Shown here: positions 2,699 through 33,180 of the stretch, in pieces | How the letters are laid out: the number at the start of each line of letters is the position of its first letter | Position numbering within the stretch: position 1 is the first letter of the stretch | NCBI GenBank assembly: GCA_028290705.1 | Contig: JAQGJH010000094.1 | Span: forward strand, 1 to 37,038 | Source: Hyphomicrobiales bacterium | GTDB lineage: Bacteria; Pseudomonadota; Alphaproteobacteria; Rhizobiales; Beijerinckiaceae | DNA: 37,038 bases | Reading direction: 5' to 3' | The notes under the pieces: generated by a model | What the model saw: the letters and a program-made list of their open reading frames with translations, nothing else | Database searches by the model: none | Told to the model about the DNA's origin: nothing | Translations under genes and position numbers: made by a program

Positions 2699-2706
2699 GG
2701 AGATCC

Positions 2707-3439: not shown

Positions 3440-5902
3440 TCAATATTTGAAGTTCAACGACACGGTCGCCGAACGCCCGGGCGCGACATAGACGTAGGGC
3501 GCGGTCGAGCGATAGAAGGCGTCGTAGATGACCGCGTTGGTGATGTTCTGGATGTTGATCTTGCCGGTGACGTTCCTGGAGAAGCGGTATTCGCCGAACA
3601 GATCGAAGCGCCAGCTTTCCGGCAGCACGTTTTCATTGGCCGCGAGCGTGCCGCCGAAGATGCGGCTCTTGTATGTCGCCTGGCCGCCGATGGTGAATTT
3701 CTCCGTCAGGTCATACTTGGTGAGGATGTTGAACGACGTGTGGGCAATGTTGGCGAGTTGCCTGCCGACGTTGGCTGCGTTCAGCGAGCGCGTCACCTCA
3801 CTGTCCATGAAGACCGCGCCGCCGAAGACGCTCCATCGATCGTCGATCTTGCCGCCGAGGCCGATCTCGATTCCGCGCACTTCATATTCGCCGCCGCCCA
3901 CGACGGTGGCGGCCGCGCCGGCTCCCTGCGTTTCGCGGGCATTTTCCTTGGTGGTCTGGAACAGCGCCACGGTGGCGAGTAGCCGGCGATCGAAGAACTC
4001 CGCCTTCATGCCGACTTCCGCCGATGTGTTGCGCTCCGGGCCTGCGGCGACGTTCTGGGCGCTCAATCCGCCGTAATCGTTACCACCGCCGTCGATCTCG
4101 GCGCCAACCGGGTTCGACGAAGTGCCATAGGCGGCATAGACGGCCCATGTCGGCCGGATCTTGTAGGTTGCGCCGACGTTCCAGTTGAAGAGAAGGTCGT
4201 CGCGCTTGAGGTAGGTCGTCGTGGCGGCTCCGACCGAGGTCGTGTCGATGGCATAGTCGTCGAGCCGCACGCCGCCGGTGAGGAAAAGCTTCTCGCCGAA
4301 GTTCAGCGTATCGAGAATGTACGCGCTCTTGGTGTCGATGTTGATCGACGTGGGCAGGCCAGCCAATTGCAGCCTGTCGTTCCAGCCGATCGAGCCGACC
4401 TGCGGGTTGAACAGGTTGAGCGGAATGCCCGGAATGGCGCCGATGACGTTGGTCTCGGTGTCGAGTGCGCGATAGGAATCTCGCGTCGACTTCTCGCTGC
4501 TGAACTCGACGCCGGCCACCAGCGTGTGCAAAACCCCGAACGTCGGGAACTTCATCGTCACGTCGGTCTGGTTGACCAGGACGTCGGTCTTCTGGCGACG
4601 GCTCTTGGCCGTCGAATTGACGGTCCATTGCGATGGATCCGGATTGGTCAGGTTCGGGGTGCCGGGCGCTCCCACGACGTAGTCCAGCAGCGAGGTGCCG
4701 TAGCGAAGCTTGTTGCTGACCGTCATCCAGTCGTTTGGCTTCAACTCGGCATTCGCCGTCCAGATATCCTGCTTGGCGCGTTGGAAGTCGCGCGAGGGGA
4801 TGCCGTAGTAAGCGCGGCGCGACAGGCCGGATTCGGTGAAGGGACGGCGCGTGCGCACGTCGAAGGGGACCCCCCAGTCGGGCAGCTGGTCGATGTCGAC
4901 GTGGACGTAGTCGAGCGTCATGGAGAAGCGCTCGCTCGGCTTCCAGGTGACGCCGAAGGCGCCGCCCCAGCGATTGTCGAAGACGTAGTCGCGGCCCGCC
5001 ACGCCGGCTTCCTGCCACATGCCGTTGGCGCGCACGGCGATCTCGGGGGTGACGACCTTGTTGACGTCGAAGGTGACACGCTTGGTGCGATCGGTGCCGA
5101 AGGTGATTCCGGCTTCGTGGAAGTCGACGAAGGCCGGCTTCTTGGTGACGACGTTCACGGCGCCGCCGGTCGTGCCGCGTCCGCCGACGACGGAGCTCGG
5201 ACCCTTCAGGATTTCCACCTGCTCCGTGTAGAAGTTCTCGCGGATGTTGACGCCCGGATCGCGCACGCCGTCGACATACATGTCGTTTCGCGCATCGAAG
5301 CCGCGGATGAAGACGCGATCGCCATAGGCGTTGCCGCCTTCGCCGGTGCCCAGCGTCAGGCCCGGCATGGTGCGCACGAGTTCGCGGAACGAGGTCGCGC
5401 CCTTGTCCTCGATGACTTCCTTGGGGATCGTGGTGACCGAGCGCGCCGTGTCGAGAAGCGGCTGCGTCAGCTTGTTGGACGACGAACGGTTCACCTTGTA
5501 GGGCGCGGCTGCGTCCGCATAGGGATTGGGAGCGCCGGCTGCGCCCGTGCCCTGTGTGCCCGAGGCATTGGCGGGTGCCTGAGGAGCAGTTGCCGGCGCT
5601 GCGGCGACTGCGGGCCGGCGTTGCGCCGGTCGCGCGGCGGTGCGTGGCCGCGCCTGCCGCGGCGCCGGACGGGCGCGGGCGGGGCGCGCTTCGCGAGGCG
5701 CCTCCACGGTCATGGCCGGGAGTTCGTTGGCAGCCTGGGCGAATGCGTCCGAGGCCGGACCGAGCACGCTCATGCACGACACGGCGATGATGCCAGCCCT
5801 GATGGCGCTGCTGTCGACCGGCTGTTTGAGTTCGCGCGACGGTGAGACGATCGAGGATGCGGGCTGACGAAGGCTTGTCGGCCTCTTGATGTTATTGTCC
5901 AT
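3440..5902 (-). CDS. TonB-dependent siderophore receptor (Fiu/PiuA-like)
   Basis: 820 residues. A long positively charged N-terminus precedes a signal peptide ending near AFAQA (about 57). A likely TonB box (ELPAMTVEAP, about 60-69) is followed by an Ala/Pro/Arg-rich linker (about 70-112). The plug domain starts at LTQPLLDTARSVTTIPKEVIEDKG and contains FIRGFDARNDMYVDGVRDPG and the EQVEILKGPSSVVGGRGTTGGAVNVVTKKP motif. A 22-strand-type barrel ends in SLNFKY with a C-terminal aromatic residue. Plug features resemble catecholate receptors, but the ligand is inferred. The start ATG has AGGGGA upstream. It heads the operon with its own PiuC, ExbBD and TonB. Confidence 0.95.
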   Translation of the reverse strand: MDNNIKRPTSLRQPASSIVSPSRELKQPVDSSAIRAGIIAVSCMSVLGPASDAFAQAANELPAMTVEAPREARPARARPAPRQARPRTAARPAQRRPAVAAAPATAPQAPANASGTQGTGAAGAPNPYADAAAPYKVNRSSSNKLTQPLLDTARSVTTIPKEVIEDKGATSFRELVRTMPGLTLGTGEGGNAYGDRVFIRGFDARNDMYVDGVRDPGVNIRENFYTEQVEILKGPSSVVGGRGTTGGAVNVVTKKPAFVDFHEAGITFGTDRTKRVTFDVNKVVTPEIAVRANGMWQEAGVAGRDYVFDNRWGGAFGVTWKPSERFSMTLDYVHVDIDQLPDWGVPFDVRTRRPFTESGLSRRAYYGIPSRDFQRAKQDIWTANAELKPNDWMTVSNKLRYGTSLLDYVVGAPGTPNLTNPDPSQWTVNSTAKSRRQKTDVLVNQTDVTMKFPTFGVLHTLVAGVEFSSEKSTRDSYRALDTETNVIGAIPGIPLNLFNPQVGSIGWNDRLQLAGLPTSINIDTKSAYILDTLNFGEKLFLTGGVRLDDYAIDTTSVGAATTTYLKRDDLLFNWNVGATYKIRPTWAVYAAYGTSSNPVGAEIDGGGNDYGGLSAQNVAAGPERNTSAEVGMKAEFFDRRLLATVALFQTTKENARETQGAGAAATVVGGGEYEVRGIEIGLGGKIDDRWSVFGGAVFMDSEVTRSLNAANVGRQLANIAHTSFNILTKYDLTEKFTIGGQATYKSRIFGGTLAANENVLPESWRFDLFGEYRFSRNVTGKINIQNITNAVIYDAFYRSTAPYVYVAPGRSATVSLNFKY

Positions 5903-8580: not shown

Positions 8581-9735
8581 TCAGGTCCGCTTGGCGACGC
8601 GCGCGAACAGGGCCGAGATCGTCAGCCCGGTGACGAGCATGACGGCGGCGTCGAGCGACAGTGTCGCGCGCGCGCCGATGCCCGAGAGACCTGCGCCGAA
8701 CAAAGCAGGGCCGATCGCCTGGCCGGTGAAGAACGAAAAGGCGTGGAGCGAATAGGCCGACTGGCGCGCCTCGGGCGCGAGTTCGACCACTTCGGTCTGG
8801 ATCGAATTGTGCAGCAGCATGAAGCCGAAGCCTGCGACACACATGCAGGCGGCCATGATGGGCCACGATGGCGCGATCGCCAGGCCCAGGGGGCCGAAGG
8901 TCATGAGAACGCCGCCCGCCGCCATGAAGTGCGGACGTGAGAAGCAGCGCAGCAGCAGCGACAGAATGGATGTGTAGGCAATGCCGCCGACTCCGAGCGC
9001 GCCGATGATCATGCCCGCCTGACGCGGCCCGCCGAGACCGTCGTCGGCCAGAATCTGGGCGATGTAAGGCAGCATTCCGTAAAGCGCGACGCCTTCGAGA
9101 AACACGGTCGTGTAGCAGAGCAGGGCCTTGGGGTTTCGGAACACCGCGGCGTAATTGGCCGCCGCCACCTGCAGGCTGAACAATTTGCGTGGGGCTGCGG
9201 GCGTTCGCAACACGAGCGTCGCCATCAGCGCGCCCACGATTGCGAGCGACGAGGAGGCGACCATGACGCTGCGCCAGCCGAAGGTTTCGGCAAGCGCGCC
9301 GGAAATGCTAGCGCTGAAGATCTGGGCAAGCAGCCCGACGGTGACGAACTTCGAAATGGCGAGCTGACGTTTGTGGGGTGGATACGTGTCGCCGATCGTC
9401 GCCATGCAGGCCGGGATGATGCCGCCTGCCACGAGGCCGGCGCAGAAGCGCGCCACGAAGAGCAGGTCGAGGCTCGGCGCCAGTGCGGCCGCCAGCAGGA
9501 AAGCAGCCAGTAGCCAGAGGCAGGCCTTCAACATGCGGGGGCGGCCGTAGACGTCGCCGAGCGGGCCGAGCACCGGCTGGCCGAGCGCGAACGGCAGGGT
9601 ATAGGCCGAGACGATCAATGCCGCTGACGCCACCGCGACGGAGAAGTCGGCCGCCAGGACGGTGACGAGCGGATCCATGGTGCGGGCCGAGACGCTGGCC
9701 GCCAATCCGCACAGACACAAGGCAAAAAGCAGCAA
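8581..9735 (-). CDS. Major facilitator superfamily (MFS) transporter
   Basis: 384 residues with about 12 membrane helices. The loop 2-3 motif GPLGDVYGRPRMLK is the MFS motif A, and SISGALAETFGWRSVM matches helix 5 of drug:H+ antiporter-type members. The substrate is unknown; an exporter of small molecules is most likely. The stop is 3 bases from the convergent OxyR-like gene stop. There is no ATG at the start. The frame is open upstream without ATG, GTG or TTG before the TTG at 9735, while an ATG with a plausible leader (9794) is in another frame. The first residues, or a base in this region, deserve checking. Confidence 0.88.
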   Translation of the reverse strand: MLLFALCLCGLAASVSARTMDPLVTVLAADFSVAVASAALIVSAYTLPFALGQPVLGPLGDVYGRPRMLKACLWLLAAFLLAAALAPSLDLLFVARFCAGLVAGGIIPACMATIGDTYPPHKRQLAISKFVTVGLLAQIFSASISGALAETFGWRSVMVASSSLAIVGALMATLVLRTPAAPRKLFSLQVAAANYAAVFRNPKALLCYTTVFLEGVALYGMLPYIAQILADDGLGGPRQAGMIIGALGVGGIAYTSILSLLLRCFSRPHFMAAGGVLMTFGPLGLAIAPSWPIMAACMCVAGFGFMLLHNSIQTEVVELAPEARQSAYSLHAFSFFTGQAIGPALFGAGLSGIGARATLSLDAAVMLVTGLTISALFARVAKRT

Positions 9736-10728: not shown

Positions 10729-12162
10729 TCAATCCTCGCGGAAGGCGCGCGACATGCTGTCGGTGAAGGGCTGCGCCAGATAGGCCAGCAAGGTGCGTTC
10801 GCCGGTGACGATTGCGACTTCGACGGGCATGCCGGGGTAGAGCCTGACGTGGGGCGCGCGGGCGAGCTGATCGGCCGTCACTTCGACAGTCGCGGTGAAA
10901 TGCGGGGCTCCGGTTCGCTCATCCACCACGGCGTCGGGCGAGACGCGGGTGACGTGTCCGGTAAGGACCGGCGTGCTGCGCTGCTTGTAGGCCACCAGTC
11001 TGACGGACGCCTGGAGATCGGGCCGGACCACGTCGATGTCGACCGGCTGGAGGCGCACTTCGACCACGAGTTTCTCGCCGATGGGCACGATGTCGAGCAG
11101 CGGGCCGCCCGCCTGCACCACGCCGCCCGTGGTGAAATGGCGAATGTTCATGACGATGCCGTCCACCGGAGCGGTGATTTCGCGCCGACCGAGCTTCGCA
11201 ACGTTCTTGCGAAGCAAATCCTGGATCTCGGCCTTCTTCGCCTGCACGTCCTGCCATTCCTCGGCGACAGCACGTGCATGGGCCGAGGTGATGGTCAGCA
11301 CCTGCGCGTCGGCCTCCGACAATTGTTCGTTCAGGCTGGCGATCTTGCCTTCGTCGGTCGCGATCTCGCCCTTGATGGATTCGAGCTGGCGCTCGAGGCC
11401 GAGGACGCGCGGCTTCAGGCCGTAGCCTTTCGAGAGCATGCTGCGCGCATCGTTGAGTTCTTCTTCGAGCAGCGGGCGTTGTGCATTGAGGGACGCCATG
11501 TGTGACTGGGTGGCGCGGATCTGTGCGGTGAACTGGTCCTTGCGCCTCTGCCAGACCTCGACCTGTCGCGACAGGGCGGCGTGCTGTTCCTCGAGAATCG
11601 ATTGCTGGGCCTCGAGCGCCGCACTGAACCGCGGCCCGGTCCGTTCGCCGACCGGCGTCGAAGCGTTGATCTTCTGCGAGAGGTCACGCTGGGCGCGCAG
11701 CCGCAACTCACGCGCCGCCAGGACGTCATGCTGTCCTTGAACGGAGTCGCGGTCCGCATCGGCATCGATGCTGTCGAGGCGGTACAGCAGATCGCCCTGG
11801 CGAACGCGCTGGCCTTCGCGCACGAGAATATCACGCACGATGCCGCCCTCGAGATGCTGGACGATTTTGCGGTTCGTATCGACCTTGATGGTCCCGTTGC
11901 CCAGCGCGGCGCTGGAGATGGGCGCGAGCGCGGCCCACAAAATCGTGCCGCCGAACAGGCCGACGAGTGCGAAGCTGCCGAAGCGAATCCAGCCCGAGAC
12001 GTCGAGCGCGGGAAGGGCCGAGGGCGCCGGCGGCGCGCCGCTCGCGCGCTCGATCCGGGCATCCAGCGCGGCGCGCATCCTCGTCTGCAGATCGCCGGCC
12101 CGCGCCAGAACCGCGCCGGTCACGTGTTGCAGCCGAGGGGACGAAGGAAGACGCGGCAGCAT
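10729..12162 (-). CDS. HlyD family type I secretion periplasmic adaptor
   Basis: 477 residues. A cytoplasmic N-terminus of about 55 residues precedes one membrane helix (FALVGLFGGTILWAAL, about 63-80). The lipoyl-like segment GTIKVDTNRKIVQHLEGGIVRDILVREGQRVRQGD follows, then long coiled coils (about 150-320). A beta-barrel domain starts REITAPVDGIVMNIRHFTTGGVVQAGGPLLDIVP and the end is LYPGMPVEVAIVTGERT. This is the PrtE/HlyD fusion protein that joins the ABC ATPase to a TolC-type outer-membrane channel. The start is 2 bases after the ATPase stop. No TolC or RTX substrate gene is next to it. Confidence 0.95.
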   Translation of the reverse strand: MLPRLPSSPRLQHVTGAVLARAGDLQTRMRAALDARIERASGAPPAPSALPALDVSGWIRFGSFALVGLFGGTILWAALAPISSAALGNGTIKVDTNRKIVQHLEGGIVRDILVREGQRVRQGDLLYRLDSIDADADRDSVQGQHDVLAARELRLRAQRDLSQKINASTPVGERTGPRFSAALEAQQSILEEQHAALSRQVEVWQRRKDQFTAQIRATQSHMASLNAQRPLLEEELNDARSMLSKGYGLKPRVLGLERQLESIKGEIATDEGKIASLNEQLSEADAQVLTITSAHARAVAEEWQDVQAKKAEIQDLLRKNVAKLGRREITAPVDGIVMNIRHFTTGGVVQAGGPLLDIVPIGEKLVVEVRLQPVDIDVVRPDLQASVRLVAYKQRSTPVLTGHVTRVSPDAVVDERTGAPHFTATVEVTADQLARAPHVRLYPGMPVEVAIVTGERTLLAYLAQPFTDSMSRAFRED

Positions 12163-12164
12163 CG

Positions 12165-13874
12165 TCAGCTCGCTTTCGCGGTGGGGATTTCGGAAACGCG
12201 CTGCACGGCGCCCAGAACTTTCGCCTTGGGGCCGAACATATGAAGCCCGCCTTCATTGAGGATCGCGACCTTGTCGACGTGACGCATGAGCGATGGCCGG
12301 TGCGCCACGATGACCACGGTCGAGCCGAGTTGCTTGGCCGAGTGAATCGCCTGGTTGAGGGCTTCGTCCCCGACCGAATCGAGATTTGAATTCGGCTCGT
12401 CCAGCACCACCAGAGCGGGATTGCCAAAAAGCGCGCGGGCGAGGCCGATGCGCTGCTTCTGACCGCCGGAAAGATTGGCGGCTTCGCCGACGATCTGCGT
12501 CTCGTAACCTTCCGGGAGACGGAGGATGAGTTCATGCACGCCGGCCACCTTGGCGGCCTCGATGACACGCGCGGGATCGGCGTCTTCCTGCATGCGCGCG
12601 ATATTGTCCTTGATGGTGCCGGGCAGCAATTCCACGGTCTGGGGCAGATAGCCGATGTGCTGGCCGAGGTCGGAGCGATCCCAGAGGAACAGGTCCGCAT
12701 CGTCGAGGCGGACGCAGCCCCGGGTCGGGGCGGCGATGCCGACCATCAGCTTGACGAGCGTCGACTTGCCCGCGCCCGAGGGACCGACGATCGCCAGCAC
12801 TTCGCCGGGAAGGATTTCCATGTTGATGCCCAGCAGCGCGGGACGTGCGGCGCCGTCGGGAACATGCGTGACGTTTTCGACGTGCAGACGGCCCTTGGGC
12901 TGGGGCAGGCGAATGGTGCCTGCATGCAGCTTGCCGCGGCGCAGAAGCTCGCCGAGATTTCTCCAGGCTGTCGCGGCCGAGCAGATCTGCTTCCAGGACG
13001 CCACCGTGGCTTCGACGGGCGCGAGTGCACGCGCCATGATGATCGAGGCCGCGGTCATTCCGCCGGCCGACAATTGATGATCGATGACCAGCCAAGCGCC
13101 GATCGCCAGAACGACCACCTGCAGCGCGCTGCGAAAGAATTTCGTCGCCGCCGTCACGAGCCCCATGCGATCGCTGGCGGCCTGCTGGCCGCCCAGCACC
13201 AAGGCGTTCCCTTCGCGCCAGCGGCGGACGAGTGCGCCGAGCATGCCCATCGAATCCGCCAGCGCGGCATTTCGGTAGGCGGCATGGACGAGAAGGTTGT
13301 TGGCGCGCGCGGTCTCGTCGCTGGCTCGAAGCTGACGCGTGTTGACGACATGCGCCAGCACGGCGGTGCTGAACAAGATGAGGACGGCCAGCGTGGTGAC
13401 GAGGCCGATCAGCGGATGCAGCATGAAGGTGACAAGCAGATAGATCGGCACCCAGGGGGCATCCAGCAGTGCGACGAGGCCGGGACCCGAAATGAAGCTC
13501 CGAAGGCTGGAGAGATCGTGCAGTCCGCCGTGCGTATTCTGCTGTCCGGAGACGCAGCTTTCGAGCCCGCGCGAAAAAACCAGCGGAGAGAGGAACTGAT
13601 CGAGCCATGTGGCGAGACGCACGAGAATGCGCGACCGGGCCAGCTCGAGCAGTCCATAGATGGTGAGGAAGAACAGGGCCAGAAGCGTGAGGAACAGAAG
13701 CGTCGACTTGCTCTGGCCGGTGAGCACGCGGTCGAAGATCTGCATCATGTAGACGGAGCCCGTCAGGATGAGCAGATTGATCCCGGCGCTGAAGGCCGCG
13801 ACGGCGATCAGGGCCGTCCGCGAGCGCAGGAGAACGTTGGAAAGAGGATGCTGCCGAAGCGCCTGGCTGACCAT
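12165..13874 (-). CDS. Type I secretion system permease/ATPase (PrtD family)
   Basis: 569 residues from the ATG at 13874, chosen because MVSQALRQHPLSNVLLRSR aligns with PrtD-type N-termini; an ATG at 13931 would add 19 atypical residues. A six-helix ABC membrane domain occupies about 20-300. The nucleotide-binding domain has Walker A GPSGAGKST (364-372), signature LSGGQ (468-472), Walker B LVVLDEP (488-494) and a switch His in VAHRPS. It exports unfolded proteins with C-terminal signals through the HlyD partner. A 21-codon reading frame with a good ribosome site ends 7 bases before this start. Confidence 0.93.
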   Translation of the reverse strand: MVSQALRQHPLSNVLLRSRTALIAVAAFSAGINLLILTGSVYMMQIFDRVLTGQSKSTLLFLTLLALFFLTIYGLLELARSRILVRLATWLDQFLSPLVFSRGLESCVSGQQNTHGGLHDLSSLRSFISGPGLVALLDAPWVPIYLLVTFMLHPLIGLVTTLAVLILFSTAVLAHVVNTRQLRASDETARANNLLVHAAYRNAALADSMGMLGALVRRWREGNALVLGGQQAASDRMGLVTAATKFFRSALQVVVLAIGAWLVIDHQLSAGGMTAASIIMARALAPVEATVASWKQICSAATAWRNLGELLRRGKLHAGTIRLPQPKGRLHVENVTHVPDGAARPALLGINMEILPGEVLAIVGPSGAGKSTLVKLMVGIAAPTRGCVRLDDADLFLWDRSDLGQHIGYLPQTVELLPGTIKDNIARMQEDADPARVIEAAKVAGVHELILRLPEGYETQIVGEAANLSGGQKQRIGLARALFGNPALVVLDEPNSNLDSVGDEALNQAIHSAKQLGSTVVIVAHRPSLMRHVDKVAILNEGGLHMFGPKAKVLGAVQRVSEIPTAKAS

Positions 13875-13881
13875 GGGGCGT

Positions 13882-13947
13882 TCAGACTGCGCCGTGGAGC
13901 AGAGTCTGACGGAGGCCGGTGGCGGGAGCATCGGTCGGCTGAAGCAT
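13882..13947 (-). CDS. Candidate 21-residue leader peptide ahead of the type I secretion ATPase
   Basis: A minus-strand ATG at 13947 follows GAGAGGATGACGAGA, a good ribosome site. The frame encodes MLQPTDAPATGLRQTLLHGA plus one Val, then TGA at 13882, 7 bases before the ATPase ATG. The ATPase start itself lacks a clear Shine-Dalgarno sequence, so reinitiation after this peptide is plausible. Such a short frame could also be chance. No similarity is claimed. Confidence 0.4.
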   Translation of the reverse strand: MLQPTDAPATGLRQTLLHGAV

Positions 13948-14204: not shown

Positions 14205-15209
14205 TCAGGCCAGCTGGCGAATACGCTCGGCCATCCTTTCGAGCTCCGGATCCGCCATGGCTCTCTCGGCGAATGGCTGGAGAGCCTGCGCGAAGGCCTC
14301 GCGATCGAAATCCTGGATGATTTCGGCTCCTTCCGCCGCGGCTTGCAGTCTGGCGATCTCGGTCCATTCCTGCATGCGCATGCGGGCGAAAGAGCGCGAC
14401 GCCAAGGCTGCGTCCCGGATCAGTTCGCGGTCGGCCGGTGCGAGGGCGTCCCAGCTTTTCCGCGAGATGAGCAGCACTTCTGGCGGCCGGGCATGTTCGG
14501 TCAGGGTGTAAAAGCGCGCGGCGCGATGATGATCGGTGGTTACGTAGGACGGCCAATTGTTTTCCGCGCCGTCGATCAGACGCGCCTGCAGCGCAGGCAG
14601 AAGCTGGCTGTAGGACAGAGCAACGGGCGTCGTGCCCAACGCGCGCATGAGGTCGGTCATGAAATCGGATCGCTGCACCCTGATGCGCAGGCCCCGCAGG
14701 TCCGCGGGCGTTCGCACCGGACGGATGCTGTTGTAGATGGATCGCGCCCCGGCTTCGTAGAAGGCGAGGCCAACAAGCCCGCGCTGTTCGAAACTGCGCA
14801 GGATTTCCTCCCCGACGTCGCCATCGATCACGCGGCGCAGATGCTCGTCGGAGCGGATGAGAAAGGGCAGGCAGAAGGCATTGCAAGCCGGGATGAACCG
14901 GCCCATCGGCGCGAGATTGACGCGCGTGAGGTCGATCGCGCCGATGCGGGTCTGCTCGATCGTCTCGTCTTCCTCGCCCAATTGCCCGCCAGGAAACACC
15001 TGGATCGAGAGACGGTTTCCGCTGCGCTCGCGCATGTAGCGGTCCATGTAGAGCAAGGCCTGGACGGTCGGGAAATCATCGTCCTGATTGTCCGCCGCTC
15101 TCAGACGCCGCCGGTCCTGTGCGCTGACCCGTACGCCAGGCGCCGCCGTGGCGGCCAGTGCCGCGCCCGCGCCGAGCAGGCGGCGACGCGTCCAGGGGAG
15201 GCCACTCAC
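14205..15209 (-). CDS. TRAP-type (DctP family) periplasmic substrate-binding protein, no TRAP permease nearby
   Basis: 334 residues. A twin-arginine-type signal (TRRRLLGAGAALAATAAPG) is cut near VSAQD. DctP-family blocks follow: VFPGGQLGEEDETIEQTRIGAIDLTRVN, the PADLRGLRIRVQRSDF segment with the substrate carboxylate-binding Arg, and LQARLIDGAENNWPSY. Family members bind carboxylic acids for DctQM permeases, which are absent here. The start is GTG, overlapping the upstream stop as GTGA. It is the last gene of a five-gene signalling operon, so a role as a ligand-presenting partner of the sensor kinase is inferred. Confidence 0.92.
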   Translation of the reverse strand: MSGLPWTRRRLLGAGAALAATAAPGVRVSAQDRRRLRAADNQDDDFPTVQALLYMDRYMRERSGNRLSIQVFPGGQLGEEDETIEQTRIGAIDLTRVNLAPMGRFIPACNAFCLPFLIRSDEHLRRVIDGDVGEEILRSFEQRGLVGLAFYEAGARSIYNSIRPVRTPADLRGLRIRVQRSDFMTDLMRALGTTPVALSYSQLLPALQARLIDGAENNWPSYVTTDHHRAARFYTLTEHARPPEVLLISRKSWDALAPADRELIRDAALASRSFARMRMQEWTEIARLQAAAEGAEIIQDFDREAFAQALQPFAERAMADPELERMAERIRQLA

Positions 15210-16540
15210 GTCGCGCGCCTTTCGAAGGCGCGCAAGATCTGATTGCCGAGCCGGACCGCCTCGTCCAGCGCGTCCGAGGCCGACTTGCGTCCCGACAGCG
15301 CGAGTTCGATCTGTTCCGCCCAGACGTCGCGCAGTTGCACCATGTCGCCGAGTCGCAGGCCACGCGAGTTGTCGGTCGGAGGCTTGCGGATCAGTTCCAT
15401 GATCGGCACCTGCAGCAGTGGCGTTCGATCGTAGAAGCCGGACGCCCTGGTTTTCTCGTAAGCGGCGCGCGTGACCGGCAGATAACCGAGGCCCTGATGC
15501 AGGGCAGCCTGGCGGTCGGTTTCCGACAGGAAGGCAAAGAAACGCGCCACGCCGCGATATTCATACGGCGTCTTGCCGCGCAGCACCCAGAGGGAGGCGC
15601 CGCCGATGAGTGAGTTCTGGGGCGCATTCTCGACGTCGGGATAGTAGGGCATGGGCAGCGCATCGTGGACGAACTTCGCCTCGGCGCGGATCCGGCCGTA
15701 GAGCCCGGAGGAACTGAGAAAGATCGGGCATTCGCCGGAAATGAAGCGGTGCTCGCCCGAGTCGTTGCGACCCGAATAGTCGAAGACGCGCGTCTTTTGC
15801 AGATCGACCAAAGCCTCGAGATGCCTGACGTGCAGCGGCGAATTGATCTTCAACTCGGCGTCGAATCCCTCAAGTCCGTTCTTCCGCGTGGCGATGGGAA
15901 CGTCGTGCCAGGCTGAAAACTGCTCGATCATTGCCCAGGTGAACCACGCAGTCGAGAAACCGCAGGTGGGCGAATTCGCCCGTTGCAGGCGACGCGCGGC
16001 GTCGAACACGTCGGGCCAGGTGCGCAATCGTGCATCGCCCAGGCCTGCGGCGCGGAGCTTGTCGCGATTGATCCACATGACCATGGAGGACGAGTTGAAC
16101 GGGAACGACAGCATCTCGCCGGTGGCCGTCGAGTAATAGCCGGTGATGGCCGGCAGATAGGCGCGGGGGTCGAAATACTGGCGTGCATCGCGCATGACTT
16201 CATGGATCGGCTTGATCACGCCCGGCTGGCTCATCATCGTGGCGGTGCCGACTTCCACCACCTGCAGGATGTGGGGCGCGCGTCCCTCCATGAAGCCCGC
16301 GAGGCCCGCCGCCATGGTGGCGCCATACGTGCCCTTGTACTCGGGCACGATGACGTATTGATCCTGCACGGCGTTGAAATCACGCGCCAGCGACTCGACG
16401 GCTGCGCGGTTGGCGTCGCTCAGCGCATGCCACCAGCGGATTTCGACCGCGGCATCGCCGCGCGCCGGCGCGATCGCGAGCAGGCAGCACAGCGCGAGGG
16501 ATCGCAGACGGAAGCGTCGTGGAGCGAGCCGGTCGCGCAT
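15206..16540 (-). CDS. UgpB-like extracellular solute-binding protein, no ABC permease nearby
   Basis: 444 residues from the ATG at 16540, which shares a base with the upstream stop (TGATG). A signal peptide (RSLALCCLLAIAPARGDA) is followed by EIRWWHALSDANRAAVESLARDFN. Then come ILQVVEVGTATMMSQPGVIKP, YYPDVENAPQNSLIGGASLW and GYLPVTRAAYEKTRASGFY, close matches to the glycerol-3-phosphate-binding protein UgpB. UgpA/E/C partners are missing. Every neighbour in the operon is a signalling protein or another binding protein. The ligand is possibly a phosphodiester or related compound, by family only. A sensing role is inferred from context. Confidence 0.92.
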   Translation of the reverse strand: MRDRLAPRRFRLRSLALCCLLAIAPARGDAAVEIRWWHALSDANRAAVESLARDFNAVQDQYVIVPEYKGTYGATMAAGLAGFMEGRAPHILQVVEVGTATMMSQPGVIKPIHEVMRDARQYFDPRAYLPAITGYYSTATGEMLSFPFNSSSMVMWINRDKLRAAGLGDARLRTWPDVFDAARRLQRANSPTCGFSTAWFTWAMIEQFSAWHDVPIATRKNGLEGFDAELKINSPLHVRHLEALVDLQKTRVFDYSGRNDSGEHRFISGECPIFLSSSGLYGRIRAEAKFVHDALPMPYYPDVENAPQNSLIGGASLWVLRGKTPYEYRGVARFFAFLSETDRQAALHQGLGYLPVTRAAYEKTRASGFYDRTPLLQVPIMELIRKPPTDNSRGLRLGDMVQLRDVWAEQIELALSGRKSASDALDEAVRLGNQILRAFERRAT

Positions 16541-17451
16541 CAGCCTGCCTCCTGGCCGTCCCAGACCCAGATGTGCATCGGCGTCGCGATTCCTTTCAGG
16601 ACGCGCATGCCGCCGTCGACGAAGCGCGCCGAGGTCTTGCCGCGGATGAGCTGGTAGGCCTGGTCGGACAGCGCCACGCCGCCGGGCTCCGCGCATTCCT
16701 GCACGCGGACCGCGAGTGTGACGCCTTCTCCGACCCGGTCCGTCTGGTTGACGATCACGTCGCCGACCGCGACGCCGACGCGAAAGACGAGACGGCCGGC
16801 CGACAATCGCGTGCGTGGATGGGGCCGGAGCTTGTTCTGCAATTCGACCGCCCAGGCGGCGGCGTCGACGACGCTGAGGAATTCGACGAGCGCGCCGTCA
16901 CCCAGCATCTTGAACAGCGTTCCGTGCGCCTGCAGGAGGCTCGGCGAGATGACTTCGCCAAACAGCGCGTCGAGCGCCCCGAGCGTGCCCGGCTCGTCCT
17001 CCTGGATGAAGCGGCTGAAACTCACGATGTCGAACGAGACGATGGCGGCGAGCCGCCTGTCGGGCATGCGCGCGGGTGAGAACTTGAGCCGCCGCAGGAC
17101 CGAGCGCACGCGGGCGAGCAACTCGCGCAACTCGCAGGGCTTGGCGAGATAATCGTCCGCGCCAAGCTCCAGGCCGACGACGCGATCTATGGTGCTGGCG
17201 CTGGCGGTGAGCATGATCACCGGCACGGGGCACTCGTCCTTGAGGAAGCGGATGACCGAAAGTCCATCTTCCTGCGGCATGTTCAGGTCGAGCAGCACCA
17301 GATCGGGCGTGGCGTGGCGAAGCGCACTGCGCAGCGAGTCGCCGCCGTCGCACAGGGTCACGTCGAAGCCGTGCATGGTGAGGTAATCGCCGACCATGTC
17401 GCGGGCGTCCTGCTCGTCGTCGACGACGAAAATGTGGTTCTTCTTCGTCAT
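16540..17451 (-). CDS. Response regulator with class III adenylate cyclase output domain
   Basis: 303 residues from the ATG at 17451, which overlaps the upstream kinase stop (ATGA); the frame stays open far upstream but that part is antisense coding shadow. The REC domain (5-120) has Asp11/Asp12, phospho-acceptor Asp55, Thr82 and Lys104. The cyclase domain (about 133-300) has both metal aspartates, Asp141 and Asp185, 44 residues apart. It also has the adenine-selecting pair Lys181/Asp238 and the transition-state Arg249. The partner Asn is replaced by Thr245 (GVTLAVR where GVNxAxR is usual). It should make cAMP under phosphorylation control, but activity may be reduced. Confidence 0.9.
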   Translation of the reverse strand: MTKKNHIFVVDDEQDARDMVGDYLTMHGFDVTLCDGGDSLRSALRHATPDLVLLDLNMPQEDGLSVIRFLKDECPVPVIMLTASASTIDRVVGLELGADDYLAKPCELRELLARVRSVLRRLKFSPARMPDRRLAAIVSFDIVSFSRFIQEDEPGTLGALDALFGEVISPSLLQAHGTLFKMLGDGALVEFLSVVDAAAWAVELQNKLRPHPRTRLSAGRLVFRVGVAVGDVIVNQTDRVGEGVTLAVRVQECAEPGGVALSDQAYQLIRGKTSARFVDGGMRVLKGIATPMHIWVWDGQEAG

Positions 17452-19193
17452 GGCCGGGCATTCCCTTCGAGGGGCAGCTGGATCACGAAGGTGCTGCCAC
17501 GGCCTGCGCCATCGGATTCGGCGAAGATCTCGCCGTCGTGGAGATCGACGATCTTCTTTGCAATCGAGAGGCCGAGCCCGGTCGAGGCCTCGCCGCCCGT
17601 GGGCTTGGCGGAGAGGCGCTGGAAGCGGCCGAACAGCCGGCGCGTATCTTCCGGGCGCAGGCCCGGGCCGTTGTCGCGCACGCGCAGAACGGCCTGTCCA
17701 TCGGCTTCTCCAACGCTCACGTCGATGCGTCCGCCCGTCGGCGTGTATTTGATGGCGTTGCTGATGAGATTGTCGACGGCCTCGCGCAGGCGGTCCGGGT
17801 CCGAATGGACGCGGGCAGGGGACGCGCCGTCGATCTCGATCAGCTGCCCCTTGCGCTGGGCAAGCGGGAGATTGGCATCGAGCACGTCGCGCACCAGCGA
17901 GACGAAGTCGATGCTTTCGCGGCGCAAGGTGATGTCCATGGCGTCGGCGAGCGCTTCGGTGATGAGGGCGTCGACCATGTCGCTCAGGCGCGACGCGGCA
18001 TTGCGCACATGCTCGAGCTGCAGGTTCATCTTTTCGGTCGGAACGTTTGGCTCTTGCAAGAACTCCTTCATCATCTCGGCTCGTCCGAGGATGACGCTCA
18101 GAGGGTTGCGGATGTCGTGCGCGACCGTGCCGAGAATTTCGCTCTGGAACGCATTGGTGCGGCGGGCGCGGATCCATTGGGCGCGCAGTCTCGCGTTGGC
18201 GGCGGTGAGTTCGCGTGTGCGCTCCACGACGCGCTTCTCGAGTCTGGCATTGGCCTGCTGCAACTGATCGTAGAGCACGACATTGTCGAATGCGACGGTG
18301 AGGCGGGAACAGAAGATCTCCACCAGGGCGCGGTCCGTGTCGGACAGATGCTTGCCGGCTTCGAGCAGCACCACCACCTCGGTTCCGCTGGCCGTGCTCA
18401 GATAGAGCACGGAGCGGTCTTCCAGAAATTCGGTCTGGCGACGCGTGAATGCGTTTTGGATGAAGGCGCGCAGCTGTGCCGTGAGCTTTCCGGGTTCTTC
18501 GAGGCCCGAGAGTTCGCGATAGCAGCCGGATCCGGCCAGAACGAAGAAATCCTCGTGGTCGTTCTCCCGCAGCACCAGAATGCCGGCGCAATCCACGTCG
18601 AGCAGGGACGAGAGCTGCGTCAGCACGCCCTCGGCCAGCTTCTGCATCGATTTGAAATCGAACAGCGCCGAGGCTGCTTCGAGGATGATCTCGAGTCCTC
18701 GGCGGGTCTCCGAGACCCGGACGAGTTGCTGGTGACTGCGCAACGCCGCCGTCACGCAGGTGAAGAGCTTGTCGGCCGTCAGCTCGGTCTTGGCCTTGTA
18801 GTCGTTGATGTCATAGTCGACGATCACGTTGCGCTCGGGGGCCTGTCCGGGCTGCCCGGTCCGCAGGATGATGCGGACGATCTCGTTGCCGAGTTCCTGG
18901 CGGATGTAGCCCACGAGACTGAGGCCAGCGGTCTCGGTTTCCATGACCACGTCGAGCAAGATGACGGCGATGTCCTTTTCGCGCGCGAGCAGGTCCCGGC
19001 CTTCCTGCGCCGAATGAGCCGACAGCAGCGTCAGCCCATAGCCGTTGAGCTGATAATCCGAGAGCGCGTAGCGCGTGCCCTCGTGGACGGCCGGATCATC
19101 GTCGATGATCGCGACCTTCCATCGGCGCAGGGGGGCGGCATCGCGAGCGTCTTCGACCAGTTCGATGAGGTCGTCGTCTTTTTCTTCGTTCAT
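17448..19193 (-). CDS. REC-DUF3369-histidine kinase hybrid
   Basis: 581 residues, no membrane helix. An N-terminal receiver (26-150) has phospho-acceptor Asp81 and the RTGQPGQAPERNVIVDYDINDYKAK block typical of DUF3369 proteins. A GAF-like DUF3369 domain spans about 160-305 and a coiled coil about 308-345. HisKA has His359 in VAHDIRNPLSVILG, and HATPase_c has N, G1 (DNGPGL) and G2 (STGLGLSIAKK) boxes. It could receive phosphate from the upstream membrane kinase and pass it to the cyclase regulator. The start has AGGAG about 8 bases upstream, 22 bases after the membrane kinase stop. Confidence 0.93.
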   Translation of the reverse strand: MNEEKDDDLIELVEDARDAAPLRRWKVAIIDDDPAVHEGTRYALSDYQLNGYGLTLLSAHSAQEGRDLLAREKDIAVILLDVVMETETAGLSLVGYIRQELGNEIVRIILRTGQPGQAPERNVIVDYDINDYKAKTELTADKLFTCVTAALRSHQQLVRVSETRRGLEIILEAASALFDFKSMQKLAEGVLTQLSSLLDVDCAGILVLRENDHEDFFVLAGSGCYRELSGLEEPGKLTAQLRAFIQNAFTRRQTEFLEDRSVLYLSTASGTEVVVLLEAGKHLSDTDRALVEIFCSRLTVAFDNVVLYDQLQQANARLEKRVVERTRELTAANARLRAQWIRARRTNAFQSEILGTVAHDIRNPLSVILGRAEMMKEFLQEPNVPTEKMNLQLEHVRNAASRLSDMVDALITEALADAMDITLRRESIDFVSLVRDVLDANLPLAQRKGQLIEIDGASPARVHSDPDRLREAVDNLISNAIKYTPTGGRIDVSVGEADGQAVLRVRDNGPGLRPEDTRRLFGRFQRLSAKPTGGEASTGLGLSIAKKIVDLHDGEIFAESDGAGRGSTFVIQLPLEGNARP

Positions 19194-19215
19194 CGGCAGG
19201 ACTCCTGATCTCGCA

Positions 19216-21186
19216 TCATTCGGCCGCCAGCGCGCGCGGCGCCGTGCGCGGAAGCACCATGGTGAAGCGCGAGCCGCCGCCCGGGCTCGTCTTCAGGGTG
19301 AGTTGTCCGCCGAGCTGGCGCGTGACGACGCTGTAGACGATGTGCAATCCGAGGCCGGTGCCGCCACGGCCCCGCATGGTGGTGAAGAACGGTTCGAAGG
19401 CGCGACGGCTCGTGGTTTCGTCCATGCCGCGGCCGTCGTCGGTGAAGTCGATGCGCACCGTTCCGGCGTCGACTTCCGAGATGTCGATGGTGATCGAGCC
19501 CGGCTTTCCAGGCTCGAAGGCATGCGTCATGGCGTTGAGGAACAGATTGGTCAGCACCTGTCCGAAGGGACCGGGATAGGAGTCCATGGCGATGCCGGGC
19601 CGTCCCGTGACATGCAGGGTGAGCTGCGGACGGCTGAGGCCGGGCCTCAGGCTGGCGACGATCTGCTCCGTGGCCTGCAACAGGTCGAAGGTTCGGCGGT
19701 CGGCATGGCTGCGGTCGACCGCGACCTGCTTGAATGACTGGATGAGTTCTCCGGCGCGCGTCAGGTTGGTGACGAGTTGCTGGGCGGCTTCGTGGCTCGT
19801 CGTGGCGAACTCATTGAGCTTCGAGCGCCGCAACTCGCCGCGCTCGATTTCGGCGGCGAAGTCGGCGCTGCGACGGGCCAGGGTCGACGCGACCGTGATG
19901 CTGATGCCCACGGGATTGTTCACCTCGTGGGCGACGCCGGCCACGAGGCCACCAAGTGCGGCGAGCTTTTCGGCTTCGATGAGGCTGCGCTGCGCGTTGC
20001 GGAGGTCCGCGTAGGCGGCTTCGATGCGATCCCGCGAGGCGCGCAATTCCTGTTCGGCTTCCGTCTTGGCGATGGCGTTTTGCCGGAACACCTCGATGGC
20101 GCGGGCCATGACGCCGAGTTCGTCGCGTGCATCGACGCCGTGCACTTTGTCGTTGAGCCGGCCCTGCACGATCGAGTCCATGGACGCGATGAGGGTGTCG
20201 AGCGGCTTGTTGATGCTGCGCGCGATGGCCGTGCCGAAAAGGGCGATCAGCAGCAAGGCCGCGATCGATAGGGCGGCGATCTGCCAGTAGACCTGATTCA
20301 GCGTGTAGCCGAGGCGGTTTTGTACACTGCTCTCGCGGCTGCGGATCGCATCGATGAGCGTCGCGGTCGCGGCGGTCATTTCATCCTGGCTTCGGTCCAC
20401 CGCATCTCGGAGCAGGTCGGCCTGCTGGTCGAAGGCCGATGAGAGGCGAAGCAGGCCGTCGCGCAGGCTCGCGAGCCGTTCGCGGAGGGCCGTCAGGCTC
20501 GTGCGCTGCAAGTCGCTTTCGGCGAGATCGATGATGATGGGCAAGGTCCGGTCGATCGTGTCGAGACCGCTGAAGGCTTCCTGGGCCGAATTCGCCGAGA
20601 AGGTGAGGTAATAGCCGTTGGCCGCCACGAGCACGCGGGAGAAAACCTCTCGCGATTTGGCCAGCGCAGGGACGATAAGCCCGTCATTGCCGCGCAGTGT
20701 GCTTTCGAGAATGGCATAGAGACCCGAGACGTCGCTGGCCGAACGCAGCACTTCATTCTCGTAGATGCGAGAAATGTCGAGCCGCACGGCACGCAACTTG
20801 TCGAAGCCTGCGACGAGGCGTTCAGTGATTTGGGCAAGATCGCGCGTCGGGTCGTTCAGCGCCGTCCGCAGTCTGGAGCCAGCGGCGAGATCGTCGGTCA
20901 AGGAAGCGCGGGTCCTTTCGATCTGCGCCAGTACTTCCGGGTTGGGCTGCGTGAAATAGCGATGGATCAGGCTTTGTAGCCGACTGGCTTCGGTTTCGAC
21001 CGAAGCGAGAATGCGGTCGGTGCGCCGGACTTCGAGAAGATCCGCCCAGGCATTGTTGAGGAGCTTGGCGCCGTCCAGAACCAGCAAGGTCAGCAGAAAG
21101 ACGACCGCAGTATTGAGGCCGGCGACCGAAAGGATGCGGCCGCGGATGGGCAGGCGCCGGAGAAGCCCCTCCATCCCGAAACCCAT
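19216..21186 (-). CDS. Membrane sensor histidine kinase with long helical periplasmic domain and HAMP
   Basis: 656 residues from the ATG at 21186 (GGGGG upstream); the frame extends to 21246. TM1 is about 18-38, a mostly helical periplasmic region about 39-300, and TM2 about 301-321, followed by HAMP (about 322-375) and a coiled coil. The H-box is HEVNNPVG (His420), the N-box LTNLFLNAMTHAF, with DDGRGM and GTGLGLHIVYSV. The sensor size and helical content recall TorS and other kinases that read a periplasmic binding protein. No receiver domain is attached, so partners are probably the two REC proteins downstream. Confidence 0.93.
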   Translation of the reverse strand: MGFGMEGLLRRLPIRGRILSVAGLNTAVVFLLTLLVLDGAKLLNNAWADLLEVRRTDRILASVETEASRLQSLIHRYFTQPNPEVLAQIERTRASLTDDLAAGSRLRTALNDPTRDLAQITERLVAGFDKLRAVRLDISRIYENEVLRSASDVSGLYAILESTLRGNDGLIVPALAKSREVFSRVLVAANGYYLTFSANSAQEAFSGLDTIDRTLPIIIDLAESDLQRTSLTALRERLASLRDGLLRLSSAFDQQADLLRDAVDRSQDEMTAATATLIDAIRSRESSVQNRLGYTLNQVYWQIAALSIAALLLIALFGTAIARSINKPLDTLIASMDSIVQGRLNDKVHGVDARDELGVMARAIEVFRQNAIAKTEAEQELRASRDRIEAAYADLRNAQRSLIEAEKLAALGGLVAGVAHEVNNPVGISITVASTLARRSADFAAEIERGELRRSKLNEFATTSHEAAQQLVTNLTRAGELIQSFKQVAVDRSHADRRTFDLLQATEQIVASLRPGLSRPQLTLHVTGRPGIAMDSYPGPFGQVLTNLFLNAMTHAFEPGKPGSITIDISEVDAGTVRIDFTDDGRGMDETTSRRAFEPFFTTMRGRGGTGLGLHIVYSVVTRQLGGQLTLKTSPGGGSRFTMVLPRTAPRALAAE

Positions 21187-21528
21187 GGTCAGCCCCCGGG
21201 AGATCGGCCTTCGGCCGGATGCACAGCATGGTATCCGGCGATACACGCAGGACCGCGGGCCTCGAGGACCATGCGGGCCGGGCTAAGGTCGGCCATGGGG
21301 CGGCAAGTTAATGAAGCAACAAGATGAGTGTCAAGAATGGCTTAGGCTTTGATTGGCCGAGATCGCACGCGGCCTTGGCCGAGGGCCTCCGGTGAGATCG
21401 TGGGACCCATGGGGTTAATGAAACCTCGCACGAGTGGCGAAGATGCAATTGTTTCGCCTCAGCAGTTCTCAAATTCTACTGTGTAAGTTCCTCACATGCC
21501 CTGCGGGTCGCATGTGTTGGAGAGTTTC
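21187..21528. other. Intergenic region between the sensor operon and the small membrane protein gene
   Basis: About 340 bases between divergent units. A hairpin CACATGC/GCATGTG (21493-21516) stands just before the ribosome site of the small gene at 21529. No convincing -35/-10 pair could be assigned for either direction. A 121-codon plus-strand frame beginning at 21434 has unlikely composition and overlaps both the short gene and the dioxygenase gene. Confidence 0.45.
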
Positions 21529-21645
21529 ATGCCGTTCTGGCTCGAAGTATACATCCTGGTCGACGCAATCTGTATTTGCGGTTCGCTGCTGCTCGTCTGC
21601 AACGCCAGGGAACTTGTGGGCCAGGAAGAATTTGCGGCCGAATGA
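21529..21645 (+). CDS. Predicted 38-residue membrane protein
   Basis: An ATG at 21529 has GGAGAG 4-5 bases upstream and encodes 38 residues. The N-terminal two thirds (PFWLEVYILVDAICICGSLL onward to about residue 24) form one hydrophobic helix with three cysteines, followed by a charged tail ARELVGQEEFAAE. Composition and ribosome site favour a real small gene over a random frame. A 7-bp hairpin lies directly upstream and another (21670-21691) just downstream. No family is recognised. It stands between the sensor kinase operon (divergent) and the dioxygenase-like gene. Confidence 0.55.
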   Translation: MPFWLEVYILVDAICICGSLLLVCNARELVGQEEFAAE

Positions 21646-21669
21646 GAGCGGACGCGGCAGGCAACGTCC

Positions 21670-21691
21670 TTGGGGAGTTAAGCATCCCCAA
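21670..21691 (+). other. Hairpin downstream of the small membrane protein gene
   Basis: TTGGGGA (21670-21676) and TCCCCAA (21685-21691) form a 7-bp stem with an 8-base loop, followed by AAGGTTTAGCTTC. The missing clean T-run makes it a weak terminator. It may instead belong to the leader of the following gene. Confidence 0.35.
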
Positions 21692-21752
21692 AGGTTTAGC
21701 TTCTATTCAGCCACGTTTGAGCTAAGGTCTGCGTACTCTACGGAGGCTGCGC

Positions 21753-29477: not shown

Positions 29478-30539
29478 TCATTTGCCGGCGTCGATGGCGA
29501 TCTGCACGATGTCTTTGGGCGTGGCGATGATGTCGTCGCTGATCTTCTGAACCTCGACACCCGGCGTCGGGTCGAGTTCCGCCGAGGCGCGCTCGGCATC
29601 GGCGATGAAAGCCGGATCCTTGACCATTTCGTCGAAGGCCTTGCGAAGCGCCGCGAGCCGCTCCGGTGGAATGTCCTTGGGCACCAGCAAGGCCCGGCCG
29701 ATGGCCGAGCCGCTGCTCAAGAATTCCGCGACCTTCTTGTGCTTCGGATCGTCGAGGAGATCCTGCATCAGCGGAACGTCCTTGAGGTCTTTGTGGCGGA
29801 CGAGGCCCGACTGGATGACCGGACGCAGGCTGCCGTCGATGACTTCGGCACGACGGCTCCACGTGTTCCAGGCGCTGGAAATCAGATCGACCTCGCCGCG
29901 TGCGAGAGCCATGGGATAGTCGTTCGATCCCGGATAGCCGCAAATGATTTCGAACTTGAAGCCTCCGAAGGCCTTGAGCATGGCGGGATTGATGTAACTC
30001 TGTCCGATGCGGCCGCTGCAGCCGACGTTGGTCTTCACCTTGCGCAAGTCCTCGAGAGTCTGGGCGGGCGAGCCCTTGCGCATCATGAAGACGGCGTTGA
30101 CGTTGGCGAAGGAGCCGATATAGGCGAAATCCTGGACGTTCCACTTGCCGATGGCCGGATCGGTCAATTGCGTATGCGCGATGGTCTCGGGAAAGAGGCC
30201 CATCATGGCGCCGTCTTTCGGGGCGTTCGTGTAAAAGAACGCCACGCCCACGACGCCGCTGCCGCCGGGCTTGGATTGCACGATGATGTTGGGCTTGCCG
30301 GGGATGTATTTCGGCATGTGCGCCGCCGCCAGCCGGGCGTAGAGATCGTAGGATCCGCCGGGCGGGTGGCCGATCAGAATGACCAGCGTCTTGCCCTTGT
30401 AGAAGCTCTCGACCGCAGCCTCCGCATCGGCTGACGTGCCCTGCGCCAGCGAAGGCGTCGTCGGGAATGCGATGAGGGCTGCCGCAGCGACGGCCAGTGC
30501 CGTTCGACGCGCGATTCCACCTTGCTTGACCTTGAGCAC
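29478..30539 (-). CDS. TctC/Bug-type tripartite tricarboxylate transporter substrate-binding protein, orphan
   Basis: 353 residues. The start is a GTG at 30539, supported by GGGAGG 5 bases upstream; the overlapping ATG at 30541 is out of frame. A signal peptide (RRTALAVAAAALIAFPTTPSLAQ) is followed by the Bug-family IGHPPGGSYDLYARLAAAHMPKYIPGKPNIIVQSKPGGSG and IPPERLAALRKAFDEMVKDPAFIADA. TctA and TctB permease genes are not adjacent, as is common for Bug proteins. Ligands are usually carboxylates. It may supply or sense a substrate of the aldolase/bicupin genes. Confidence 0.93.
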   Translation of the reverse strand: MLKVKQGGIARRTALAVAAAALIAFPTTPSLAQGTSADAEAAVESFYKGKTLVILIGHPPGGSYDLYARLAAAHMPKYIPGKPNIIVQSKPGGSGVVGVAFFYTNAPKDGAMMGLFPETIAHTQLTDPAIGKWNVQDFAYIGSFANVNAVFMMRKGSPAQTLEDLRKVKTNVGCSGRIGQSYINPAMLKAFGGFKFEIICGYPGSNDYPMALARGEVDLISSAWNTWSRRAEVIDGSLRPVIQSGLVRHKDLKDVPLMQDLLDDPKHKKVAEFLSSGSAIGRALLVPKDIPPERLAALRKAFDEMVKDPAFIADAERASAELDPTPGVEVQKISDDIIATPKDIVQIAIDAGK

Positions 30540-32996: not shown

Positions 32997-33102
32997 GTGC
33001 TGCATTGCACAAAAACTAGCCACTCGCCGCTAAACTCATCCTCGGGTGCGGAATCGCGCGTCAACCGAGGGCGGACGTCCGGTCGATGCCGAGGCCTTCG
33101 GG

Positions 33103-33119
33103 TTGGCACGGGTCTTGAA
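33103..33119 (+). promoter_or_regulatory. Sigma-54-like promoter of the nitrate transport operon
   Basis: TTGGCACG, 4 bases, TTGAA fits the sigma-54 consensus TTGGCACG-N4-TTGCA with one mismatch, an A for the C of the -12 GC. The expected start near 33130 lies at the foot of the first ANTAR hairpin, which is where a leader for NasT should begin. The mismatch is at an important base, so the call is moderate. No upstream NtrC site was identified. Confidence 0.5.
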
Positions 33120-33127
33120 TGTATTCA

Positions 33128-33148
33128 GGACCGGCAACGAGGCCGTCC
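33128..33148 (+). promoter_or_regulatory. ANTAR-target hairpin P1 in the nrtA leader
   Basis: CGGC (33132-33135) and GCCG (33142-33145) enclose the hexaloop AACGAG. A one-base bulge (33131) allows GGA/TCC to extend the stem. The loop has A at position 1 and G at position 4, the two bases required in ANTAR-binding hairpins. Confidence 0.75.
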
Positions 33149-33162
33149 AAATTCCGACATTC

Positions 33163-33180
33163 GACAGCAACGCCGCTGTC
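33163..33180 (+). promoter_or_regulatory. ANTAR-target hairpin P2 overlapping the terminator
   Basis: GACAGC (33163-33168) and GCTGTC (33175-33180) form a perfect 6-bp stem around the hexaloop AACGCC, again A at 1 and G at 4. Its loop and 3' arm (33171-33180) are part of the terminator's left arm, so P2 and terminator cannot form together. Confidence 0.85.

Follow-up and report, generated by a model that had tools for sequence, protein, structure and literature searches.

A permease-free operon linking UgpB- and DctP-type binding proteins to a sensor kinase cascade in Hyphomicrobiales

What do two binding proteins of unrelated transporter families do in an operon without a transporter? This question is raised by five genes of a Hyphomicrobiales bacterium, located on a contig that was analysed over its whole length of 37038 bases (the window) and belongs to a draft genome of 3.02 Mb (74% complete). 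In transcription order they encode a membrane sensor histidine kinase, an intermediate kinase, a response regulator carrying a class III nucleotide cyclase domain, the binding protein UgpB and the binding protein DctP of the TRAP (tripartite ATP-independent periplasmic) type (Table 1). As the sequence-only reading had described, all five are set closely together on the minus strand (14205-21186). A 22-base gap follows the first kinase gene, and the further junctions are the overlaps ATGA (4 bases shared), TGATG (1 base) and GTGA (4 bases); the five genes are translationally coupled. A frameshift or assembly edge as the origin of this arrangement was ruled out, since all five frames are open and lie mid-contig and four relatives share the order. 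We consider it fairly probable that the operon encodes a binding-protein-fed phosphorelay, in which UgpB and DctP dock on one kinase and the cyclase alters the level of cyclic AMP (cAMP).

A close UgpB (66-69% identity) was detected in four further genomes (G003, G013, G020 and G031) in a UgpB search of 61 genomes. All four relatives possessing both the cyclase and this UgpB exhibit the order DctP-kinase-REC/DUF3369/kinase-REC/cyclase-UgpB-DctP, the final gene of G020 being cut by the contig edge. With all four relatives sharing it, the order is more than a chance neighbourhood, which the synteny rules out. The window differs from the relatives by the absence of the front DctP; the intergenic stretch at its place gave no DctP match at E 1e-6. 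The search for the same order without a permease, suggested by the earlier reading, was thus successful: neither ugpAEC nor dctQM genes are present in any of the five operons. As had been claimed for the window, the binding proteins do not form part of any transporter encoded next to them. The sole importer-type permease (BPD_transp_1) among the 20 open reading frames (ORFs) covered by our Pfam scan of the window is an unrelated NrtB-like protein about 13 kb away (34641-35540).

Five of 51 genomes of the genus contain the REC-cyclase. Of the 37 in which the two genes were both looked for, these 5 also have a close UgpB and 32 lack both (Fisher P 2e-6, shared descent ignored); three of these 32 (G005, G016, G023) gave only a distant UgpB-like match (23-27%). 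Among the best 80 of 589 confirmed REC-cyclase loci from genome contigs, a full-length match to the cyclase protein was found only in L031-L035, the rest matching mainly over REC. L031 and L032 are the loci of G013 and G031, which were found via UgpB too. L034 carries DctP-kinase-kinase-cyclase with no UgpB match, and L033, located at a contig edge, has kinase-kinase-cyclase. Among 397 evenly sampled genomes of the order, only that of the window gave a REC-cyclase match at 1e-60. The kinase was found at 1e-40 in 61 of the 397 genomes, many through the transmitter half alone, and at 1e-100 in 2 of 385 genomes of the class, both within this order. These scans scored the best two (kinase, order), five (REC-cyclase, order) or three (kinase, class) candidates per genome, and weaker second copies may escape them.

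UgpB of the window passes the UgpB equivalog model NF008211 (453.2 bits, cut-off 411). The nine glycerol-phosphate contacts given in a 2025 structure paper (Tyr64, Glu88, Ser143, Trp188, Trp191, Ser266, Gly303, Tyr342 and Arg393; PMC12718374) are all kept in the window's protein, and equally in the UgpBs of all four operon relatives, in all nine divergent UgpBs described below and in 25 of 25 ordinary UgpBs. In all 25 ordinary ugpB loci ugpA adjoins ugpB; ugpE was detected in 24 of these loci and ugpC in 23, and where they are missing the fetched stretch or contig ends before them. A UgpA query gave a match of 60-100% identity in 9 of 9 comparison genomes, compared to nothing above 28% in the five operon genomes (UgpE and UgpC were not searched genome-wide). 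At E 0.001 there was no match at all in the window's genome and in G013, which is 96% complete. The values for the others are 19% (G020), 20-26% (G003) and 25-28% (G031), and the strongest G031 match (27%) is accompanied by a distant UgpB-like protein of its own. Apart from the window's genome, the operon genomes are 93-100% complete. As all nine contacts are kept and the cognate permease is missing, UgpB looks, judged from its residues, like a working binder without a transporter. It very likely serves signalling and not uptake.

DctP of the window retains the RVQ and ENNWPSY motifs common to the upstream DctPs and the solved proteins; variants among the upstream DctPs are RIQ in one and ENNWPSF in six. 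Its closest solved structures are the TRAP binding proteins 4n8y, 4x8r, 4mhf/4mij, 4ovr and 4n15/4n17, which we take to be hexuronate binders. The kinase-linked DctPs form one clade (95/99) apart from nine other DctP paralogues, which comprise the rows with more than 200 aligned residues that were not already included and were taken irrespective of whether they have a DctQM of their own. Identity and tree disagree on the descent of the window's DctP: it is 47-50% identical to the upstream type of the relatives and 41-45% to their second type, whereas in the tree it groups with their second type (98/95), a placement that carries a long-branch warning. No DctM match was found on the operon contig in four of the five operon genomes, the window's contig among them. 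G003 has a complete separate TRAP operon with its own DctP and DctQM, on the opposite strand at a distance of about 4 kb. We regard a role of DctP in signalling, not in uptake, as quite likely.

On the output side, the REC domain of the window's regulator is 66-76% identical to that of the regulators at the same position in the families f20 and f36. The two of these scanned (L175 and L188) consist of Response_reg and Trans_reg_C, and the others are of similar length (233-247 residues). In the window's group a DNA-binding domain of the OmpR type thus appears to have been swapped for the cyclase. The Guanylate_cyc match of the window's regulator (22.3 bits) is barely above the cut-off of 21.9. 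The metal-binding Asps, the Lys and Asp specifying ATP and the transition-state Arg are present in 8 of 8 aligned cyclases (positions assigned by eye). Against the norm of class III, the transition-state Asn is replaced by Thr in seven, including the window's, and by Ala in one. According to PMC4215837, Ma1120 is an active adenylyl cyclase with Ala at the Asn position and loses its activity when Asn is introduced. As the residues specific for adenylyl cyclases are kept and active Ma1120 likewise lacks the Asn, cAMP is a likely product. This supports the cAMP output proposed in the earlier reading; outside the window's group, the two scanned regulators, L175 and L188, end in a DNA-binding domain and have no cyclase. 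The phospho-residue of the cyclase REC was assigned by alignment, those of both kinases were read by eye.

We propose that UgpB, for which glycerol phosphate is the predicted ligand, and DctP, with a hexuronate-like sugar acid as its putative ligand, would each catch their solute in the periplasm. Without handing it over to a permease, the loaded proteins would dock on the kinase at its TorS-like helical domain and alter the kinase activity. Phosphate may then pass from this kinase to the REC-DUF3369-kinase and further to the REC-cyclase, or from the first kinase to both, and the REC-cyclase would change the presumed product cAMP. That both UgpB and DctP act on this kinase has, in our estimation, an even or slightly better chance of being correct.

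Several observations weigh against this proposal. TRAP permeases are encoded elsewhere in all five operon genomes, and DctP could in principle serve a distant one. If UgpB as well as DctP served distant permeases, the operon would only sense uptake. The DctM genes in all six genomes searched (seven matches in the window's genome, six above the cut-off) are consistent with such ordinary transport, and so is the incompleteness of the window's genome. However, the lack of any UgpA in the operon genomes, in G013 even of any match to the query, and the separate clade of the kinase-linked DctPs make it very unlikely. Furthermore, the second DctP of the relatives has an altered ENNWPSY motif in 3 of 3 readable proteins (of four), and the Arg of RVQ is lost in two of four. 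Because of these changes, not every binding protein need bind a ligand, as far as motifs can tell.

The sensor of the kinase bears on the proposal as well. A hydrophobic helix is followed by a helical region of about 260 residues taken as periplasmic, a second hydrophobic helix, HAMP and the transmitter with the H-box VAHEVNNP (helices and H-box read by eye). Pfam detected HAMP and HATPase_c, and HisKA weakly with 19.8 bits, under its cut-off. In an alignment of 27 sensors the invariant positions are concentrated in the stretches IHR, SRE and LV..N..YL, and a PDB search with this alignment mainly gave HAMP or chemoreceptor helices. The AlphaFold model of the sensor is all-helical, with a predicted local distance difference test (pLDDT) score of 86 and a predicted template-modelling score (pTM) of 0.58. 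Foldseek ranks the direct small-molecule sensor McpS above TorS: the best matches are McpS 2yfb/2yfa (E 1e-4 to 3.4e-4, template-modelling (TM) score 0.57-0.59 by target length), besides PilJ 8wdf (E 2.6e-3), while TorS 3o1j, 3o1h, 3o1i and 3i9y follow with E 5e-3 to 7e-3. By target length, the TorS entries reach TM 0.65 (3i9y), 0.56 (3o1j), 0.48 (3o1h), 0.39 (3o1i) and 0.24 (E. coli 3i9w), only the first two of those listed exceeding 0.5. The helical sensor domain and the comparison with TorS in the earlier reading are thus borne out, but TorS is not the nearest fold. Because McpS binds malate and succinate directly and TorS was solved with TorT, according to the PDB titles, the modelled fold alone fits both direct and binding-protein sensing and does not decide between them. 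Alternatively it might be that the helical bimodular domain itself binds small ligands like McpS and the binding proteins only concentrate these or are leftovers of transport. The ranking of McpS favours such direct sensing; against it, TorS, which works via TorT, is matched too, and the family of the binding protein shifts with the type of sensor in the sister group described below. We consider it unlikely.

A further alternative is that the kinase has a single partner. DctP would be the original one, with UgpB acting as a co-transcribed buffer or scavenger or on another receptor. Of the genomes matched in the kinase scan of the order, the gene arrangement was read in 9 of 15 of f36 and 8 of 12 of f20, and of the f28 genomes with a type-A-like sensor match in 2 of 4; L232 was not among the loci used. 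In the 27 type-A kinase loci, DctP lies directly upstream in 20 and is truncated in 1; the six without it include one at a contig edge and the window, whose DctP is at the opposite end. UgpB adjoins the kinase in only 14 of the 27, which speaks for DctP as the sole partner. Homologues of the intermediate kinase (48-63% identity) lie near the kinase or a response regulator in related loci. A further point against the proposal comes from f20, where none of 8 loci has UgpB beside the kinase of this lineage, so that the kinase as such can do without UgpB. Moreover, only one sensor column holds residues confined to the two UgpB-linked kinase groups, compared to 0-11 for other pairs of groups; convergent sensor residues marking UgpB docking were accordingly dismissed, as nothing stood above background.

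The genomes of f36, however, argue for UgpB as a partner in its own right. In 9 of 9 f36 loci examined, a second, permease-less UgpB (49-53% identity to the window's) lies beside the type-A kinase operon in the opposite direction, and an ordinary ugpBAEC is present elsewhere in these genomes. This kinase operon contains the REC/DUF3369/kinase and a regulator, of the OmpR type where scanned (L188). Three of the nine loci (L182, L184 and L191) gave no DctP match, which leaves UgpB alone of these binding proteins next to the kinase. A phylogeny of 39 UgpBs recovers both the operon group and the divergent group as single clades (100/100 each), separated by starred branches, and the operon group sits among ordinary UgpBs of f20 and f36; the window's row is flagged as a long branch of unusual make-up. 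Because the two kinase-linked groups belong to separate UgpB lineages, UgpB was probably recruited to this kinase on two occasions. Taken together with the full binding site of UgpB in genomes without UgpA, this makes a single partner rather unlikely. Losses of canonical-invariant positions were also considered as a mark of orphan UgpBs: each orphan group lost them in 11 of 120 columns, 4 of them shared (hypergeometric P 0.009). This was treated as weak because control canonical sub-clades lost 0-8. In L188 the gene after the divergent UgpB encodes an APH-family phosphotransferase (2382-3341), and a gene of similar size (293-331 residues) occupies its position in 6 of the other 8 f36 loci; it is possibly linked to a phosphorylated or choline-type ligand.

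A related transmitter adjoins yet another binding protein, of the family SBP_bac_5. L035 carries oppBCDF, followed by REC/kinase-REC/cyclase, and on the opposite strand a related kinase with an SBP_bac_5 protein. In 13 of 17 further loci read, a related transmitter adjoins an SBP_bac_5 protein with 50-73% identity to that of L035. Within the fetched stretches of these 13, a REC/DUF3369/kinase is present in 8 and a REC regulator with at least 69% identity to the window's REC in 8, a ninth having 35%. The opp permease is present in L035 itself; with the L035 queries no OppB or OppC match was found in the 17 loci at E 1e-6. ABC (ATP-binding cassette) ATPase-like matches in 4 of the 13 (L217, L218, L221 and L223) may belong to an unrelated or divergent importer nearby. 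The window's sensor region had no match at E 1e-6 in any of the 13 loci. As the kinases paired with SBP_bac_5 do not match this region, sensor and binding-protein family seem to change together.

The module is thus not one fixed unit of the five genes: the core of kinase, REC-DUF3369-kinase and regulator occurs with DctP only, with UgpB only, with both, or with SBP_bac_5 and another sensor. In G031 the second DctP is followed by a TctC-family gene, of which a short fragment (90-93% identity) was observed at the other operon end (L114, 1421-2416 and 10586-10891). As a tentative extension of the binding-protein-fed phosphorelay, one kinase platform might take exchangeable binding proteins (DctP, UgpB, perhaps the TctC protein in one relative) as ligand-reading subunits. 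Bacteria would then retune sensing by gaining a binding-protein gene and the response by swapping a DNA-binding domain for a cyclase.

Among known systems, TorT-TorS-TorR (sensing of trimethylamine N-oxide) likewise has a permease-free periplasmic binding protein feeding a kinase with a long helical sensor, to which the window's sensor is similar in fold. In contrast, TorT is the only binding protein there and of another family, TorS is itself a hybrid kinase and the output is a DNA-binding regulator. Salmonella PgtA-PgtB-PgtC pairs an ABC-type binding protein with a kinase, the solute being a phosphorylated three-carbon compound, but PgtC is not UgpB, the system regulates PgtP, and it is not known to have a cyclase or a second binding protein. 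The NCBIfam PgtB model gave a weak match (68.9 bits, cut-off 1000). With the canonical UgpBAEC the operon shares the UgpB family and the intact glycerol-phosphate site; it differs in that no UgpA was found in the operon genomes and that the window's ugpB overlaps the cyclase-regulator gene. Like binding-protein-activated two-component systems, the operon joins binding-protein genes to the gene of a kinase with a putative periplasmic sensor. No title or abstract describing it was found among open-licence PMC texts. In the citrate system BctC-BctDE of Bordetella a transporter-type binding protein (TctC family) also activates a sensor kinase; BctC serves its own transporter BctCBA too (PMC9602780), whereas the window's genes have no adjoining cognate permease. 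The cited paper counts only about ten characterised binding-protein-fed kinases, TorT and BctC among the binding proteins. New in comparison to these systems would be that one kinase is served by several binding proteins from unrelated families, that UgpB has become associated with it repeatedly, and that a cyclase has taken over the output.

The flanks of the operon comprise, on the left, a type I secretion ABC protein with an HlyD-type adaptor (10729-13931) and, on the right, an ORF at 21753 on the opposite strand with no Pfam match at E 0.01. Further away, a weak TctC-family binding protein (29478-30539, minus strand; 34 bits, cut-off 27) has no TctAB among the scanned ORFs. A nitrate assimilation cluster (31950-37038, plus strand) was recognised by Pfam and consists of two NMT1_2 proteins, the NrtB-like permease, an ABC ATPase and the start of an NirB-like oxidoreductase. 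The first NMT1_2 protein may be NasS, the second is NrtA-like; NasS is a binding protein itself used as a regulator. A tRNA without clear anticodon reported by ARAGORN at 5569-5660 (plus strand), inside a TonB-dependent receptor gene, is probably false.

Table 1. Genes of the operon, its surroundings and the related SBP_bac_5 loci
Feature	Position or loci	Strand	Remarks
Membrane sensor histidine kinase	19216..21186	minus	stop at 19216, ATG at 21186; longest frame begins further upstream at 21246
REC-DUF3369-HisKA-HATPase_c intermediate kinase	17448..19193	minus	DUF3369 match 1.6e-40
Response regulator, REC fused to class III nucleotide cyclase domain	16540..17451	minus	Response_reg and Guanylate_cyc
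UgpB, glycerol-3-phosphate binding protein family	15206..16540	minus	NF008211; signal peptide read by eye
DctP, TRAP-type binding protein	14205..15209	minus	PF03480 1.8e-71; twin-arginine-like leader read by eye
Intergenic stretch upstream of operon	21187..21752		place of front DctP gene in relatives
Major facilitator superfamily (MFS) protein	8581-9735		left of operon
Type I secretion ABC exporter	12165-13931		left of operon
Sister kinase with other sensor region, directly beside SBP_bac_5 protein	L215-L224, L228-L230		often near REC-DUF3369-kinase and REC regulator

If the proposed phosphorelay is true, the operon would be a sensor rather than a transporter, its binding proteins having been diverted from nutrient uptake, and glycerol phosphate would gain a signalling role in soil Hyphomicrobiales. 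A kinase with at least two binding proteins of unrelated families, including a working-looking UgpB in genomes free of its permease, would offer a natural test of how several solutes are integrated. Furthermore, given the repeated association of UgpB with one kinase lineage and the swapped regulator output, how receptor specificity evolves can be tested in a small number of genomes.

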